A DNA stretch of 63,337 nucleotides from Candidatus Saccharimonadota bacterium (lineage in GTDB: Bacteria; Patescibacteriota; Saccharimonadia; Saccharimonadales; Saccharimonadaceae). A model generated the notes under the pieces. That model was not told the DNA's origin. It ran no database searches and saw only the letters and a list, made by a program, of their open reading frames with translations. Both the position numbers and the translations under genes were made by a program. The stretch spans positions 1-63,337 of the forward strand of contig JAFWHC010000005.1 in assembly GCA_017512095.1 (NCBI GenBank), given 5' to 3'. Below are positions 154-7,204 of the stretch, one piece after another. The first letter of the stretch is position 1. Each line of letters opens with the position of its first letter.

Positions 154-2364
154 TTATGACGCCGACGATATGAAGCAGCGGACCCCATGCCCTTGCGCTC
201 GCGGCAGACTCACATTGGGGTTTGAGGCTGCCCCACCGAGAGATTGTGCCGAGGTGGTCGACTCGCTTTTCCGCGACCATAGATAAACGTACGAGTATCT
301 TATCTCGTTGGTAGCGAACGAATAGTATCCTGACGGTGTTAAGGAAAGTGGTATTTTCTGATTCTTGACACCGGAACCATTGCCGGCGTTATAGTTGTTT
401 GACAACAATTGATACCAGTTGCCCGTTATGGTCCAATTCTTAGGACACACTGTATTCTGCGCCGTGCCGGTCTCTTCAACTCCTATCGAGTCGGCAGTTG
501 CAGCGTACCAGTTGTAATAGTAGTATCCGTTGCCTTCGTGATATGCGGCCGTCTCCGAGGCGGACGGATCCCATGTTTCCATCGAGACCAAGTTAGTGTC
601 CGTTGACGTGAGAGGATTTGTTTCGTCAAAGTTGGCGAGGTTTAAATTTAGGTTTTGAACCATGTGGCACGATCCGTTGGCTAGCCTTCTGACGCTGTAG
701 CTGTTTCCGTCGCGGCTATCAATGAGGGCGAACGTGCCGATCCCTATCGCTGCGGAAGCTTCAGACGTAGCCTCGCCATCAACGACTTCCGTTTCTTCGC
801 CAGTGTCTGGGTCGGTCGTTGTCGTCATGATGTCTACTACTAGCTGGTTGCCACCGCTTATCCCTCTATAATCAAATATTCTCGCATCGGGGCTTACTTG
901 ATTGCCCCACATGTTAGTGTTCTTGCAGATTGCATTCGAAACCTGTTGCATTTCCGTGACATATGGTTTTTGTTTAATTTCGCCATCTTCATATTTTGGA
1001 TAAGTGCTTTGCAAACCGACGTAAGCGAAAGCTTCGCGCGTGCCAGTTGCGGTACCGTCAGATATTTTAGTAATATAGTTGTAATTATACGGACTAACTT
1101 TAATCCAAAAGTCATATCTACCCGCCGATGCTGCGGCGGCAAGAGCGGCGCGTTCTTCGCTGGTCAAGATGCCGGTTCCGGTAGCTGCTATTAGCGCATC
1201 ATCTTCGGCGAGGGCTGTGCTGGCGCTCCCGTCATCGGTAATCTCGCCCGTGATTGGCATGTCACAAGTGAGGGCGGCGCGATTATTGTTTATTTCAAAG
1301 TCGGTAACTGTGCAAGTTTTAGATTGAGGTCCTAGCTGGCTAACATCATAGTTTGCCGCCACCATTTCACCGTGTTTGACGACAAAGACTTCGATGTTTT
1401 GACTTGTGATAAGGCCCGTATCGGCACTCTCGGCCAAGTCGAAAGCTAGCGTCATAGAGAAAGGAGTCGTGCCATCGTCAGCGCCAAAACTTTTTTCTGT
1501 TATGATATTATTACTAACGGCGTCATCCAGCGAATTCGCCGAGGCTAGAGCTGTGTAGACAATTTGGTTTTCGTAAGTGCCAGCAAGGACGTCATTGTTA
1601 ACCATAACGCCATAGTAAACGTTAAAATGGTTAGCGTCGGTGTCGCCATTTTCCCCGCCAAAGCCGTCATTGTCTGTGGTCGTGGCTTTCCAAATTTGCT
1701 GAGGGGCAGAGAGAGTGGGGACTGCTGACCAAGTTACGTTTTTGTAAATGCTCTCCGCGTTAGCATAGGTTAATTCTTCATTTAATTTGTTGCTATAGAT
1801 TGACTCGGAGGCATAGGTGGGGGCGGAGGCGATGCCGGTGTTTTCTACGCCCGGAACGGAAAATCCCCAAGCGTAGTTCGTGAATTTGCTAGGCGTGCTG
1901 GTGAACGCCGAACCGATGGCCGGAATCGAGAAGCCGGAGTCTCCTTCGATTTGCAAGTCGTTAGAGGTTGGAGAGTTAGTAGAGATGTAAACCGTGTAAT
2001 ATTTTCCGGTCGATTCTATGCCAATAGTCTTTTTGAGGATTTTGAGTGTGCCGACGTTACCATTAGCGGCAGAGGTCGCGCCGGCGTCTATGCTGGTGGG
2101 GATAATCGTACCAAAGAGGACATCACCATGACCGGCGTCTAATATACTACCATTGCCATAATCGGGGTCGAGCGCAAGGGCAGTGGGGCGCCAGGTTACG
2201 TTGAAGGAAAGATTAACGGCGGCATTGGCCTCGGAGACTAAGGTTGGGACGAGAGCATAAACGAATAAAAAGACAGCGAGACTCGCAAGAGAGCCGCCAA
2301 GAAGCTTACGGTAGAGATTTCTTGATTTGATGTTGCCGAGAACGGCGGTTGTCTTGGTTTGCAT
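154..2364 (-). CDS. Large secreted surface protein with C-terminal FISUMP-like domain
   Basis: 736 residues. A hydrophobic segment at about residues 25-48 ending in an AxA-like site (SEANA) looks like a long signal peptide. The middle is beta-rich and threonine-rich and contains a GTYENQIVYT motif near residue 275, which recurs as GTYEGSIVYT at the C-terminus of the protein at 20624-21502. The last 180 residues resemble the Fibrobacter succinogenes major paralogous (FISUMP) domain: a Cys-Pro-x-Asn-Trp box, aromatic-rich stretches, a LWSR box and a terminal VRCF. There is no sorting motif. The start is set by AGGAGG 6 nt upstream of ATG. A 240-nt structured leader precedes it. Function unknown; a cell-surface adhesin or ligand-binding protein is an inference. 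Confidence 0.7.
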   Translation of the reverse strand: MQTKTTAVLGNIKSRNLYRKLLGGSLASLAVFLFVYALVPTLVSEANAAVNLSFNVTWRPTALALDPDYGNGSILDAGHGDVLFGTIIPTSIDAGATSAANGNVGTLKILKKTIGIESTGKYYTVYISTNSPTSNDLQIEGDSGFSIPAIGSAFTSTPSKFTNYAWGFSVPGVENTGIASAPTYASESIYSNKLNEELTYANAESIYKNVTWSAVPTLSAPQQIWKATTTDNDGFGGENGDTDANHFNVYYGVMVNNDVLAGTYENQIVYTALASANSLDDAVSNNIITEKSFGADDGTTPFSMTLAFDLAESADTGLITSQNIEVFVVKHGEMVAANYDVSQLGPQSKTCTVTDFEINNNRAALTCDMPITGEITDDGSASTALAEDDALIAATGTGILTSEERAALAAAASAGRYDFWIKVSPYNYNYITKISDGTATGTREAFAYVGLQSTYPKYEDGEIKQKPYVTEMQQVSNAICKNTNMWGNQVSPDARIFDYRGISGGNQLVVDIMTTTTDPDTGEETEVVDGEATSEASAAIGIGTFALIDSRDGNSYSVRRLANGSCHMVQNLNLNLANFDETNPLTSTDTNLVSMETWDPSASETAAYHEGNGYYYYNWYAATADSIGVEETGTAQNTVCPKNWTITGNWYQLLSNNYNAGNGSGVKNQKIPLSLTPSGYYSFATNEIRYSYVYLWSRKSESTTSAQSLGGAASNPNVSLPRAQGHGVRCFISSAS

Positions 2365-2641
2365 TTAGTCCTCCTTGGTTTCTTTTTCCTCGGAGGTGCG
2401 GTTTTTTCCTATAAACAAAATCGGCACCACGAGGTGTCGCAACTCAATAAGCATCCAGCCGTTTTACGCGAACTAAACACGAATCGGGTATCCTCATGAT
2501 GCCGAGTCTATGTTGAATTCACGTAAACAGCACTGGTGTGCTTGGTTATATTGAATGTACGGCTTGTTTATATATCTATAAACTTGCTTATTGAATTGCG
2601 ACTTATGGTTTTATTTTATCATGCTTAAAACGCTTTTACAA
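2365..2641 (-). promoter_or_regulatory. Promoter and long structured 5' leader of the FISUMP-like gene
   Basis: On the minus strand a -35 TTGTAA (2636-2641), 17-nt spacer and -10 TAAAAT (2613-2618) predict a transcript starting near 2606, about 240 nt before the ATG. The leader contains a 17-nt inverted repeat, 2586-2602 with 2436-2452, pairing at every position if one G-U pair is allowed. Inside it are a hairpin at 2569-2586, an AGCAC/GTGCT hairpin and an AGCCGT/ACGGCT pair. The SD lies outside this fold, next to the ATG. A cis-regulatory RNA or riboswitch-like element is likely but matches no class I recognise. Confidence 0.6.
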
Positions 2642-2693: not shown

Positions 2694-4115
2694 TTATTTA
2701 TCTTCTGTGGTTTTGTCGTCGCGGAAGGAGAACATGATAGGAGTGCCCAGGAAGGGGTAGGCTTCGCGGAGTTTGTTCTCAAGGAAGCGTTTCCAGGACC
2801 AGTGGAGAGTTGAGAGGCCATGACCATGGACGACAAACCAGGGCGGGCAGGTGTCGGTTTGGACGATGTATTTTGGTTTTGGGCGTGTATTTTTTAGCCC
2901 GGCGGGAGCGTGCTCTAGGATGGCTTGGTTCAAAACTTTGTTGAGGTCGGAGGTTTTAAGTTCAATGTGGCGTGCCTCGTCAATGTCGAGGGCAAGGTCG
3001 AAGAGTTTGGTGACGTTTGCGCCGGTCTCGCTACTTGTGAGAAGAACGGGAGCGAAGGGGAGGAAGTTAAAGTCATATTCGAGGTCGTCGAGGATTTTGT
3101 CGGTGTTTTTTACAAGGTCGGTTTTTGTGACGACGACGATGATACCCTTTCCGGCTTCGACGATTTGGCCCGCCAGGCTTTGGTCAAGTTTAGAATGTGG
3201 TTCGGTGCCATCGACAAGGAGGGCGCAGATGTCGGATTCTTCGATGGCGGCGAGAGTGCGGAGGGCGGAGAATTTTTCTATACCGACTTCGCGTTTGCCG
3301 GGCTTTCTGAGGCCAGCCGTGTCAAGGATTTCTAGAGTTTTGCCTTTGAATTTTAGTTCGACGCGGTTGATGTCACGAGTGGTGCCCTGGCGAGAGCTAA
3401 CGAGAGCTTGTTGTTTTTTGGCTAAACTGTTGAAGAGGCTGGATTTGCCGACGTTCGGGCGGCCAATTAAAGCTATCGTAATCGCAGCTTTCCGTTCGGC
3501 TTTTGTCCTAGTGCTCGACTCGCAGTCGTCGGAATCACAACGATTAGTCCTGCGCTCGTCGACGACGTCACCTCGAACTCGCTTGGTAATCGTTGTCATT
3601 CCGACTGCTGGCGTCTGCGCATCCGGACAAATAGCCGAACACAAAGCTGCTTTGAGCGTAGCTATGCCGTATCCGGTGGTGGCGGAGACTTTGAAGGTCT
3701 GGTCGGGTTTGATGCCGAGGCTGCGGAATTCGTAGATGTCGAGCGAGCTGCCGAGGTCGCATTTGTTCAAAATGAGGAGGACGGGTTTTTGGGATTTTAA
3801 GGCCATTTTGGCGATGCGCTTGTCTTTTTCTGAAGGGTAAAGTGAGGAGTCGAGTGTGAGGAGGATGAGGTCGGCAGAGGCAATAGCGTCCATAATTTGG
3901 TCTTGGATAGATGCCTCAAAATCGTCAGCGGCGTCTTTAAGGCCGGCGGTGTCAATCATCAAAAAGCGGTCGTCGATGCGGGCAGTAACAGAGTCACGCG
4001 TTGTTCCCTCTTCGCGGGCGACGATGGCGATGTTTTTATGCGCGAAACGGTTAAGCAGGCTGGATTTACCAGCGTTAGTTTGACCAACAAGCGCGACGAT
4101 TGGAAAGCGTTTCAT
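2694..4115 (-). CDS. der: Ribosome biogenesis GTPase Der (EngA)
   Basis: 473 residues with two tandem GTPase domains. The first has a P-loop GQTNAGKSS at about 11-19, DTAGL at 55-59 and NKCD at 117-120; the second has GRPNVGKSS at about 218-226, then DTAGL and TKTD. A C-terminal KH-like domain follows. Der acts in 50S subunit assembly. The first P-loop departs from the usual GRPNVGKS, and an unusually polar charged linker (about 178-210) joins the two G domains. A TATAAT box ends 7 nt before the ATG with no SD, so the mRNA is probably leaderless. Identification is firm. Confidence 0.95.
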   Translation of the reverse strand: MKRFPIVALVGQTNAGKSSLLNRFAHKNIAIVAREEGTTRDSVTARIDDRFLMIDTAGLKDAADDFEASIQDQIMDAIASADLILLTLDSSLYPSEKDKRIAKMALKSQKPVLLILNKCDLGSSLDIYEFRSLGIKPDQTFKVSATTGYGIATLKAALCSAICPDAQTPAVGMTTITKRVRGDVVDERRTNRCDSDDCESSTRTKAERKAAITIALIGRPNVGKSSLFNSLAKKQQALVSSRQGTTRDINRVELKFKGKTLEILDTAGLRKPGKREVGIEKFSALRTLAAIEESDICALLVDGTEPHSKLDQSLAGQIVEAGKGIIVVVTKTDLVKNTDKILDDLEYDFNFLPFAPVLLTSSETGANVTKLFDLALDIDEARHIELKTSDLNKVLNQAILEHAPAGLKNTRPKPKYIVQTDTCPPWFVVHGHGLSTLHWSWKRFLENKLREAYPFLGTPIMFSFRDDKTTEDK

Positions 4116-4147: not shown

Positions 4148-5710
4148 CTACCAGCGGCGTTGGGTGCCTTGGTTGCCGTTCGTTTGGCCAGGCATCTGGC
4201 CGTTCATGCCGCCTGGACCCATGCCGCCATTCATCATGCCGGAGCCGACCTGAGTCGTTTTTTCGGCGAGCTTGGTCGTGGTGTATTCTTCGCCGTTGAC
4301 ATAGACCGTGTATTCGCCGTTTTCAACAAACTTGTCGGAACTTAAGACGGCGTGCTGAAAGGTTTTGGCGCTTGTGTGGGAGAGAATGAGATTGCCGCTC
4401 GTGTCTTTAACTTCGATGACTGTGCCGGCGGAGTAGGTTTGGTCGAAGAGGACGGAGATTGAGTAGCCGGCGCTGGAAGTTGCGGGGGCGACCGCCATGC
4501 CACTGGCACCGACGGCGACAAGTGAGCCACCGTTGAAGGTTACGGCACCTTCAGCGTCGAGCGCGCCGTTGCCGGAGTTGGTCGGACCGTCGACGGAGAC
4601 TTCGCCGCCGTTGATGGTGAGGGCGCCATTACTGTCGATACCGTCGCCGACGGAGCTGACGTGGAGTTTGCCGCCGTTGATGATAATGGCGTAGTTTGAT
4701 GAACTGGCTTGATAGTTTCTCATGTTTGGAGAGGAGCTGTCGTTGCCGCCAGCGGCGTTAATGCCGTCGTCACTCGCCGTGACGGAGATGTCGCCGCCGT
4801 TGATGGTGATTTTGGCGCCTTCGAGACCTTCGTAGGATTTCTTAATCGCGATGGTACCGCCGTTGATTTCGAGGCTGGATTCGGCGTGAATGCCATCGTC
4901 GCCAGCAGAAGCGATAATTGTGCCGCCGTCGATTTTGATCCAGCCTTTGGCGACTTCGTCGGAGTTGTTGGATTTGATGGCGTCGCCGCCGGAGGTAATG
5001 TCGAAAGTGCCATCAACGATGTAAACGGAATCGCGGCCGCGAATACCTTCGTCTTTGCTGCTGATAACATAGGTGCCGGAGTTGATTTTTAGGTCGTCTT
5101 TGCCGACAATGCCGTCTTCGTAGTTTGCTGTGACGGTGAGTTTGCCGGAGCCTTCGAGGACCATGTCGTCATGAGAAAAGAGAGTGGCACAGACGTCTTC
5201 GTCCCAACCTTGATAGATTGATCCGTCGGTGAGGGAGTTTTCTGAACCTGCGGCGAGTTCGATGGTGATGAGTTTTGCTTCGGCGATATAGATGGCGGGG
5301 CCAGAGTTGTTAGTAATTTTGACGCCATTCAGGATGAGCTTGACGGCGCCGGCAGTGTTAACTTCTAGGTAGCCGTCGGTGAGTTCGCCGGAAATTGTGT
5401 AGACGCCAGCTTGAGTGATAGAAGTTTTGCCGGTGCCGGAGAGGACGATTTCTGAGCCGTCGTATTTTTCCCAGTTGACGCCGGTGTCGTTGATGTTGTT
5501 GCTGAGGGTTGAGCCGCCGTCACTATTTGTGCCACCGAGAATTAAGGCAACGGTTGTAACGGCGGCGAGAATAACAACGATGATTACGATCGGGAGCCAA
5601 GTTTTGGATTTTTTAACGGGCTTTTCCGACATTTTTTGCGGAGATTGCTCCCGCGCTCTAATAGCGTCTTCACCCCTGTTTTCAGTGAAATTTTCTGAGT
5701 TTTCGTTCAT
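4148..5710 (-). CDS. Membrane-anchored carbohydrate-binding Cthe_2159-like protein
   Basis: 520 residues. A charged N-terminus is followed by one membrane segment at about 38-60, then a long repetitive beta-helix-like region with many repeats of the type INGG / DDGIH / GDGI typical of the Cthe_2159 carbohydrate-binding family, ending in a Gly/Met/Gln-rich tail. The ATG overlaps the stop of the DUF4956 gene by one base (TAATG), so the two are translationally coupled. The trio VTC domain, DUF4956 and Cthe_2159-like protein is a recurrent cluster in other bacteria. Polysaccharide or pectin-like polymer binding at the surface is family knowledge; the ligand here is unknown. Confidence 0.8.
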   Translation of the reverse strand: MNENSENFTENRGEDAIRAREQSPQKMSEKPVKKSKTWLPIVIIVVILAAVTTVALILGGTNSDGGSTLSNNINDTGVNWEKYDGSEIVLSGTGKTSITQAGVYTISGELTDGYLEVNTAGAVKLILNGVKITNNSGPAIYIAEAKLITIELAAGSENSLTDGSIYQGWDEDVCATLFSHDDMVLEGSGKLTVTANYEDGIVGKDDLKINSGTYVISSKDEGIRGRDSVYIVDGTFDITSGGDAIKSNNSDEVAKGWIKIDGGTIIASAGDDGIHAESSLEINGGTIAIKKSYEGLEGAKITINGGDISVTASDDGINAAGGNDSSSPNMRNYQASSSNYAIIINGGKLHVSSVGDGIDSNGALTINGGEVSVDGPTNSGNGALDAEGAVTFNGGSLVAVGASGMAVAPATSSAGYSISVLFDQTYSAGTVIEVKDTSGNLILSHTSAKTFQHAVLSSDKFVENGEYTVYVNGEEYTTTKLAEKTTQVGSGMMNGGMGPGGMNGQMPGQTNGNQGTQRRW

Positions 5711-6381
5711 TAGATTAATTGCTCCTTTGAGACATGCGAGAGAAGAACTTTGAGGTTGGAATTTTTAACGCGGATGGCGTCGAGAAATTCCTTTTCGTTC
5801 GCGGATTTTTTCAAGCAAACGTCGTAAGTTAGTTGATAGAGGCTGCCCATGTTGGTCGTTTTGGAACGGACGAGCTCATGGGAAGTGGTGTATTTTTTAA
5901 ATTCGGCGTCGAAAACGTGCGTGTAGTCGAGGTCCTCAGGAATAACGATTTCGAGAGTTTGGGGTTGGGCAGACATGTTGAAGATGTTGGTTTTTGAGAG
6001 AATAAGAATGACGGCGACTGTGAGAGCGGTGATGACGGCGGCGAAGAGAATGTGGCCCATGCCAAGAGCGAGACCGACCGCCATGGCGAAGAAAACGGAG
6101 GAGATTTCCTTGGAGTTGCCGGCGATGGAGCGGAAGCGGATGAGAGAGAAGGCGCCGAGGATGGCGATGGATGTGCCGAGGGAGCCGTTGACCATGAGCA
6201 TGACAACTTCGACGAGAAGCGGAAGAATGGTCAAGGTGATGAGGAAGTTGCGGCTGGTTTTGCTCGTCTTCATGTGGGTAAAGGCGATGACGAGGCCGAG
6301 AGCGATGGCGGCGGCGGAGCAGATTAAGATGGTTTTTATGTCGAGACCGGAACTGGCGGTGTCGAATACGCTGTTAAACAT
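5710..6381 (-). CDS. DUF4956 family membrane protein
   Basis: 223 residues with about four membrane segments in the first 135 residues and a cytoplasmic C-terminal domain. The loop with FSLIRFRSIAGNSKEIS (about residues 78-95) is the family's hallmark. Its start overlaps the end of the upstream VTC-domain gene by 8 nt, and its stop overlaps the start of the downstream Cthe_2159-like gene by 1 nt, so all three form one operon. The family has no established biochemical function; association with VTC-domain proteins suggests a membrane partner. Confidence 0.85.
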   Translation of the reverse strand: MFNSVFDTASSGLDIKTILICSAAAIALGLVIAFTHMKTSKTSRNFLITLTILPLLVEVVMLMVNGSLGTSIAILGAFSLIRFRSIAGNSKEISSVFFAMAVGLALGMGHILFAAVITALTVAVILILSKTNIFNMSAQPQTLEIVIPEDLDYTHVFDAEFKKYTTSHELVRSKTTNMGSLYQLTYDVCLKKSANEKEFLDAIRVKNSNLKVLLSHVSKEQLI

Positions 6382-7204
6382 TTTTTTGATTCCTTTCGTT
6401 TATTAATTGGTAGATTTTTCCATATTTTGAGAACCTTGTGGGGTAAATTTTGAGCCGGGAGAGCTCGGCGACGAACCAAGGCGGCATGGCGTTCATGGTT
6501 TTTACTTCCATGATGATGCTGTTCTTTGGACTGTCGGTTGAGGGGAAATATTTTTCGCATTTTGTGGATTTTTTAAAGTGCAGGTCTTTTTCGCGGAAAC
6601 GGAGATTTTCGTCGAAGGTGAGGCGGAATTCGGGATTGTCCCTGCCTTTGAAGGCAACGCGGTCGGCGGCAATGAAGAGCCTTGGCTCGAGCCCGTAATA
6701 GTCCATTAGGTAAGCGAGTTCGCGAGCGATTTGGAGTTGTTGAAATTCGCCTTTGTGAGACTTTTCGGCGAGAGAGATTAAGGATTCACCTTTGAGAAAT
6801 TTTTCGAAGTCGCGTTCTTTGAGGATGAGGCGGCGTTTGTTGCCGATTTTAGTTTTTTTGACGACGACTTTGGATTTTACTTCGAGGAAGACGTCGGATT
6901 TACCTTTTGGCATTTTGTACATGCGGGCGCGGAGCTTCTCGCGGAAAGCGGGGCGTTCGATTGAGTTGATGGCGAGGTCACTGTTTTTAGTGTCGAAGTA
7001 AATGCTTAGAACTTCTTCTTTGTAGAATTCGTCATGTTTGAGATTTTTTTCGATTTTCTTTAGGAGCGCGGTTTTTTCCTCTTTTGTGATGAGGTATTTT
7101 TCTTCGACACGCTCGATGGTCCGGTCATCACAAGCTTTGTCGACAATGGTTTTGCCGCTGACGCGAGGTTGTCGCTTTTTGGTGATAATTCCGGTTACGT
7201 TCAT
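6374..7204 (-). CDS. VTC domain-containing protein (polyphosphate polymerase domain)
   Basis: 276 residues forming a VTC/CYTH-type triphosphate tunnel. Basic and acidic tunnel residues appear in order: EEKYLI near 34, YFDT near 69, REKLRAR near 88, FLEVKSK near 106, KRRL near 119, ADRVAF near 181, IMEVK near 231 and a terminal SKYG. In yeast this domain makes polyphosphate from ATP; in bacterial VTC/DUF4956 clusters the product is not settled. The TATAAT box ends 6 nt before the ATG, so this first gene of the operon is probably leaderless. Confidence 0.85.
   Translation of the reverse strand: MNVTGIITKKRQPRVSGKTIVDKACDDRTIERVEEKYLITKEEKTALLKKIEKNLKHDEFYKEEVLSIYFDTKNSDLAINSIERPAFREKLRARMYKMPKGKSDVFLEVKSKVVVKKTKIGNKRRLILKERDFEKFLKGESLISLAEKSHKGEFQQLQIARELAYLMDYYGLEPRLFIAADRVAFKGRDNPEFRLTFDENLRFREKDLHFKKSTKCEKYFPSTDSPKNSIIMEVKTMNAMPPWFVAELSRLKIYPTRFSKYGKIYQLINERNQKNV

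Follow-up and report, generated by a model that had tools for sequence, protein, structure and literature searches.

Here, we describe a leader RNA on the minus strand of the window (the whole analysed stretch of 63,337 nucleotides, contig JAFWHC010000005.1 of a gut Candidatus Saccharimonadota bacterium), which probably acts in cis as a transcription attenuator controlling surface proteins, with a pseudoknot competing against a terminator. Almost nothing is known of how genes are regulated in Saccharibacteria, which live as ultrasmall epibionts. The structure of the leader, with its long closing stem P1, we regard as close to certain. Comparative evidence shows the conservation of P1, of the inner hairpin P4, of a pseudoknot between a loop strand (A1) and a tail strand (T), of an alternative T hairpin with its U-tract, of the promoter register and of the association with a gene, all at the level of homologous sequences; from these we infer that T would terminate, that the pseudoknot would be the antiterminator and not the terminator, and that some signal would choose between them. 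An attenuator with the pseudoknot as antiterminator is the most economical account of three conserved, partly exclusive pairings and a U-tract. In order of transcription, the features are:

2613 to 2641, minus strand: promoter, with a -35-like TTGTAA (2641-2636) and an extended -10 TG-A-TAAAAT (2621-2613), from a consensus scan
2585 to 2602, minus strand: 5' arm of P1, the stem of the first-pass annotation (18 bp), from the fold and covariation
2566 to 2583, minus strand: P3-like hairpin GUUUAUA-GAUA-UAUAAAC, from the MFE fold
2559 to 2564, minus strand: 5' arm of P2, AGCCGU, partner 2462-2457, from the MFE fold
2529 to 2542, minus strand: small additional hairpin AGCAC-ACCA-GUGCU, from the MFE fold
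2516 to 2527, minus strand: 5' arm of P4, partner 2474-2463, from the MFE fold; all 15 P4 pairs covary in homologues
2492 to 2505, minus strand: A1, the pseudoknot loop strand UCGGCAUCAUGAGG, complementary to T, from aligned A1/T pairs
2463 to 2474, minus strand: 3' arm of P4, from the MFE fold
2457 to 2462, minus strand: 3' arm of P2, ACGGCU, from the MFE fold
2436 to 2453, minus strand: 3' arm of P1, its final base doubling as the first base of the terminator-like hairpin, from the fold
2421 to 2434, minus strand: T, the pseudoknot tail strand CCUCGUGGUGCCGA, partner of A1, from aligned A1/T pairs
2417 to 2436, minus strand: terminator-like hairpin CACC-UCGU-GGUG followed by CCGAUUUU, by direct count; a terminator scan recognises homologues
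2388 to 2400, minus strand: A2, a degenerate second copy of the A1 sequence (CGCACCUCCGAGG), its CCUCC facing the Shine-Dalgarno sequence, by homologue recognition
2370 to 2374, minus strand: Shine-Dalgarno sequence GGAGG, predicted to pair with CCUCC at 2396-2392
154 to 2364, minus strand: downstream gene for a 736-aa protein with an N-terminal signal or hydrophobic segment, from its open reading frame and a profile match

The first-pass annotation had paired 2586-2602 with 2436-2452 over 17 positions with one G-U. Indeed, the minus strand forms this pairing (its G-U position reads A-C in the plus strand), and P1 reaches 18 bp by adding 2585/2453, one pair beyond the earlier count, with 2602-2585 (GUCGCAAUUCAAUAAGCA) and 2453-2436 (UGCUUAUUGAGUUGCGAC) as arms and one G-U. 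The strand, the 133 nt enclosed and the further hairpins within the stem were all as described. The annotation had also called such a stem very unlikely by chance, and P1 is the sole inverted repeat of at least 16 nt with more than 90% complementarity in the 63-kb window, the others being 71-86% complementary; a 17-mer search with 3 mismatches returned its two arms as the only matches. The leader (2365-2641) folds at -91.9 kcal/mol on the minus strand, with a z-score of -8.8 and none of 200 shuffles equally low; on the plus strand the z-score is -4.9. What the annotation had missed is that an inner hairpin loop (2505-2492) is complementary to 2434-2421, immediately 3' of P1. The A1:T duplex of the window copy amounts to about -25.4 kcal/mol.

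Is this layout common to related leaders? The first relatives came from a DNA search of 99 related genomes. By folding, two leaders from one genome (G059) and one from another (G051) have the same layout with quite different sequences, and in these as in the window the inner hairpin loop (window CGGCAUCAUGAGG) is complementary to the stretch following the stem (window CCUCGUGGUGCCG). A pattern search for that stretch, allowing at most 3 mismatches, found 45 places in 19 of the 118 genomes of the genus, nearly all of them leaders of the same build; one, L029, lies within a coding region. Over the loci collected up to that point, a rule-based search for pseudoknot, stem and U-tract identified 124 distinct copies, compared with 2 in the same DNA read backwards.

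The first-pass annotation had staked its proposal on homologous leaders keeping the stem. They do so by compensatory change, in 24, then 100, leaders and in 12 more of other genera and families. When the 24 were aligned plainly with MAFFT, 86.8% of cells were paired against 73.2% in shuffles, the observed values being reached by none of 500 shuffles, and sliding the partner by 1-3 columns left a pairing of 39-46%. Here, paired cells made up 97% of the outer and 84% of the inner part of P1, 73% of P4, in which 15 of 15 pairs were doubly changed, and 95% of the pseudoknot. The covariance model R1 aligned 109 matches, 9 of which are weak antisense hits that arise because the element is nearly palindromic. 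In the 107 distinct rows of this alignment, 90.9% of cells pair (68.4% in shuffles) with a covariation score of 0.606 (0.195 in shuffles), and the pseudoknot helix, which is absent from the R1 model, was 93.1% paired and had double changes at 7 pairs. In the 100 sense copies, most P1 pairs are formed by 98-100% and take three or four Watson-Crick types; across homologous leaders P1 keeps pairing while almost every base changes. An independent outgroup set, the 12 leaders from other genera and families, has the same three helices, with the pseudoknot 96.2% paired. The conserved secondary structure with covariation that defines a cis-regulatory leader RNA was therefore found.

The A1:T pseudoknot spans 13-18 bp. 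At its positions 3, 4 and 7, G.U is used freely and A.C avoided, which shows that the sense RNA, not a DNA palindrome, is selected. The letters of A1 and T vary between species and change together (CCGUAAGG/CCUUGCGG, CCAUGAGG/CCUCGUGG, CCAUUAGG/CCUAGUGG); outside these two strands, all that we found was a U-rich loop in P3 and weak sequence preferences behind A1. The A1-T pairing scored 0.962 in cis, 0.937 in trans within a genome and 0.905 between genomes. Within genomes, cis pairing has a small but significant advantage over trans; an intramolecular partner is therefore favoured, and pairing in trans only was rejected. We see a slim chance that the leaders of one cell share a species-specific code and make up a network in which any A1 could pair any T of the genome, either through trans action between transcripts or through cassette exchange behind any leader at T; if true, surface proteins would be displayed in a coordinated or mutually exclusive manner, in an epibiont that has hardly any other regulation. 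An upstream ORF starting after the AGGA in A1 was also considered and rejected, as a dozen copies inspected by eye had no consistent start or frame.

The promoter-like TTGTAA-17-TAAAAT of the window, with a TG preceding the second hexamer, ends at 2613, and transcription is expected to start near 2606, a few bases before P1. In 96 homologues, the spacing of TG (84/95%) and TATAAT (66-96% per base) from P1 is constant, so that the transcript should start at the first bases of P1. In each of the 85 copies with sufficient sequence, an ORF with a Shine-Dalgarno sequence lies at most 260 nt downstream (median 66 nt), and a hydrophobic N-terminal segment is present in 82 of these 85 proteins compared with 24 of the 55 long ORFs of the window. 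The leader is thus located as an attenuator would be, between promoter and start codon and on the sense strand. The 736-aa protein of the window matches the FISUMP profile TIGR02145 with an E-value of 1.2e-5, below the curated cut-off; in other genera most of the downstream genes encode small proteins of the membrane or secreted type (DUF4352, TM2-like, an OmpA-like protein). Single leader copies in other families stand before a DNA methylase gene (L095) and a restriction-enzyme-like or nuclease-like gene (L219, by reading the sequence), and the device is therefore not confined to surface genes. The annotation had suggested a riboswitch-like or other cis-acting RNA controlling a FISUMP-like surface gene. 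A cis-acting RNA is well supported by compensatory stem changes, the fixed promoter distance and the secreted or membrane proteins encoded behind it; as to the riboswitch-like part, no conserved unpaired aptamer core was seen, and control of the gene is suggested by the mutually exclusive conserved pairings.

T also contributes one half of a local hairpin, GCACC-(4 to 6 nt)-GGUGC, with U5 behind it. We counted these hairpins directly; a MAFFT alignment of the T regions was unable to place the loop indels. Of 124 copies, 110 have at least 5 bp in this hairpin and a loop of 4-6 nt, and in distinct T sequences it was found in 81% and 96%, compared with 14% and 21% with a shuffled 5' arm. Its fifth pair is G-C within the genus and A-U elsewhere: other genera have the hairpin GACACC/GGUGUC and a P1 starting with GUC rather than GUGC, the end of P1 and both hairpin arms having changed together. 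A terminator scan selects exactly the T hairpin in L013 and L190, and the U-tract after it is invariant in homologues. Most copies have 5-6 bp; the hairpin of the window copy, of 4 bp and with four U behind it, would terminate weakly. T is hence shared between the A1 pseudoknot and the GCACC/GGUGC hairpin with U5, and the mutually exclusive terminator and antiterminator pairings of an attenuator are predicted, with 4 bp in the window copy.

On this basis, we propose that transcription would start at P1 or a few bases before it, and that P1 (18-24 bp) would close a domain comprising a short hairpin and the long hairpin P4, with A1 displayed in the P4 loop. T would emerge as the polymerase leaves P1. 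A free A1 could then capture T in a pseudoknot of 13-18 bp that leaves no loop, 3' arm or U-tract for the terminator hairpin, which would lead to read-through into the surface gene. With A1 occupied or the domain misfolded, T would fold on itself (GCACC/GGUGC plus U5, taking the last bases of P1) and transcription would stop. The pseudoknot greatly exceeds the T hairpin in stability (median -25.3 versus -7.5 kcal/mol), so that such a switch needs kinetic control or a factor, and the T hairpin would win only with A1 slow or occupied. The device is testable at once in vitro with a laboratory polymerase. Several observations speak against the attenuator: the weak T hairpin of the window copy, the large gap in stability between pseudoknot and hairpin, the additional pairing of the U-tract with the A-tract of A1, the fact that no conserved unpaired aptamer core was seen, and the presence of methylase and nuclease-like genes among the downstream genes in other genera.

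Could the leader instead be a constitutive 5' structure, whose blunt terminal helix and pseudoknot shield the message from 5'-end-dependent decay without any switching? P1 does lie at the expected 5' end of the transcript in a fixed register, and the sequences of P1 and P4 vary freely provided that pairing holds, as in a purely structural element. We nevertheless consider this unlikely, because it fails to explain why GCACC, which is dispensable for the pseudoknot, is kept pairing with GGUGC, why both change together to GACACC/GGUGUC in other genera, and why the U-tract is invariant.

Less probable still is that control is mainly translational, with T pairing to A2 by the start codon, or A2 and its neighbours pairing to the Shine-Dalgarno sequence, and the pseudoknot merely deciding which. 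Downstream of T, many leaders carry A2 as a recognisable third version of the strand (23 of 110 homologues at a score of at least 9, none in shuffles), and pairing of the Shine-Dalgarno sequence is raised above shuffles, strongly in the window copy (paired probability 1.0 versus 0.62) and modestly but significantly across leaders (0.59 versus 0.50, p = 7e-4), 37% of which have it strongly paired compared with 5% in shuffles. However, this pairing is not universal, many copies being at background; A2 is absent or degenerate in several groups, and most outgroup leaders have a short spacer between T and the start codon and no A2. We rather think it likely that A2 and the Shine-Dalgarno pairing, as predicted, would form a second layer of control by the start codon in many copies, including that of the window.

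Given that A1 pairs its A-tract with the U-tract, the A1:T helix itself could be the terminator stem, an intrinsic terminator of A-tract, GC stem, U-tract and long loop that formation of P1 and P4 would oppose. AAAAAYGGCAYCAUGAGG/CCUCGUGGUGCCGUUUUU has the layout of such a stem with its A- and U-tracts, and RNAalifold favours A1:T over P1 if pseudoknots are forbidden. Yet the helix fits together with P1 and P4 as a pseudoknot, all being kept together, its loop as a terminator would be about 50-60 nt, and the small T hairpin is conserved separately; we find this reading very unlikely.

How widespread is the putative attenuator? Matches to R1 place the leader in 53 of the 118 genomes of the genus (33 of the 77 good ones), with at least 25 copies in four of them, in 25 of 294 genomes of the order and in 21 of 147 of the class. 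R2, a model built from the outgroup set, matched 45 of 246 genomes of the order, with one match beyond the class. The relatives are Candidatus Saccharibacteria MAGs, largely from ruminant guts. With as many as 25 or more copies before secreted proteins in genomes of 0.7-0.9 Mb, the leader would be a main regulator of the surface proteome. A recent review states that the mechanisms governing the differentiation of Saccharibacteria between states remain completely unknown (PMC11665869). The genome of the window has one copy, and no convincing second one was found there. None of 16 relatives has a leader adjoining der, which marks the leader of the window and its gene as an accessory insertion at this place. 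Two exact-pattern scans of the IMG/VR viral contigs gave no match, and a virus-borne element was rejected on this ground.

Within der/EngA (3490-3645, minus strand) lies an imperfect palindrome of roughly 145 bp, present in 4 genome copies of 83-85% identity; it is in frame in the Der GTPase, between two domains, and at least two other copies are also in frame with the same peptide, TPAVxxTTxTKRVRGDVVDERRT. Palindromic in-frame elements of this sort, to which we liken it, occur in Rickettsia. The der genes of three relatives (L234, L235, L237) are shorter and apparently lack the palindrome. Upstream of the leader (2648-2671) is an AT-rich terminator-like palindrome, TGTTGTAA..TTACAACA, with five other places in the genome (L002-L006), and at 4148-7204 a Cthe_2159 carbohydrate-binding protein is clustered with a DUF4956 membrane protein and a VTC-domain protein.

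When species are compared, each locus keeps its leader. Within G055 and G139 (L121-L127, L064), paralogous surface genes share near-identical 180-bp segments of T, UTR and signal peptide, which suggests frequent recombination or gene conversion; in the G055 paralogues this segment is 88-95% identical, the leader and promoter are unrelated, and identity drops again in the mature protein. A cassette swap at every locus, hinted at by identities in short windows, was rejected, as most pairs keep the gene body in long-region alignments and diverge in UTR and signal peptide alone; among the pairs so aligned, only L228/L229 switch cleanly at T. Mosaic exchange may explain why A1 and T are the sole invariant sequences, as they would need to be compatible after exchange. 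That the palindromic T and its flanks are primarily a DNA recombination site for exchange of surface-gene cassettes, the RNA structure being secondary, is extremely improbable: paralogues of one genome do share T, UTR and signal peptide and not the leader or upstream DNA, and the interspecies homology of L228/L229 ends exactly at the U-tract, with a gene behind it that is found behind another leader 7 kb away, but G.U tolerance with A.C avoidance, promoter register and compensatory changes in P1 and P4 are properties of RNA, and L226/L227, which keep the gene body and differ in UTR and signal peptide alone, and L223/L224, collinear throughout, are as ordinary gene conversion would yield.

In comparison with known systems, the leader belongs to a previously uncatalogued RNA family. 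Rfam 15 gave no match to it above chance at gathering or relaxed thresholds, the gathering scores of known families, including fluoride, preQ1 and T-box, were not reached, and no description of Saccharibacterial leader RNAs turned up in the literature searched. Like a T-box, it is a large 5' leader with a predicted competition between terminator and antiterminator, and T contains UGGU in some species. Unlike a T-box, it has no Rfam match, UGGN is not kept (CGGU in G055 and others) and the partner of T lies in cis; a T-box-like pairing with the 3' end of a tRNA was rejected, UGGN not being conserved and T reading GCGGUGCC in G055, G139, G102 and G142. The ompA and aprE leaders carry 5' stabiliser hairpins with a terminal stem at the 5' end of the transcript. 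Our leader has such a terminal stem as well, but adds a conserved pseudoknot, a terminator-like hairpin and a U-tract. In the fluoride (crcB) and preQ1-I riboswitches, a pseudoknot between loop and 3' tail uses the strand that otherwise builds the intrinsic terminator (PMC11077080), and the loop-tail pseudoknot of the leader would likewise compete for the strand of the predicted intrinsic terminator. It differs from these in having no Rfam match, in a pseudoknot of 13-18 bp, in that no conserved unpaired ligand core was seen, and in its dozens of copies per genome before surface genes; the bacterial RNA repertoire gains from it a loop-tail pseudoknot of very large size whose covariation is unusually clear. 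Finally, the Vpma surface genes of Mycoplasma agalactiae, in a reduced genome too, have a common 5' UTR and signal-peptide segment and diverge beyond it, in a locus with one promoter and the Xer1 recombinase (PMC2268961). The Saccharibacterial surface genes, in their own reduced genomes, share the segment of UTR and signal peptide and differ beyond it in the same way, but in contrast to the single promoter of Vpma, every leader copy has its own promoter and its own leader RNA.
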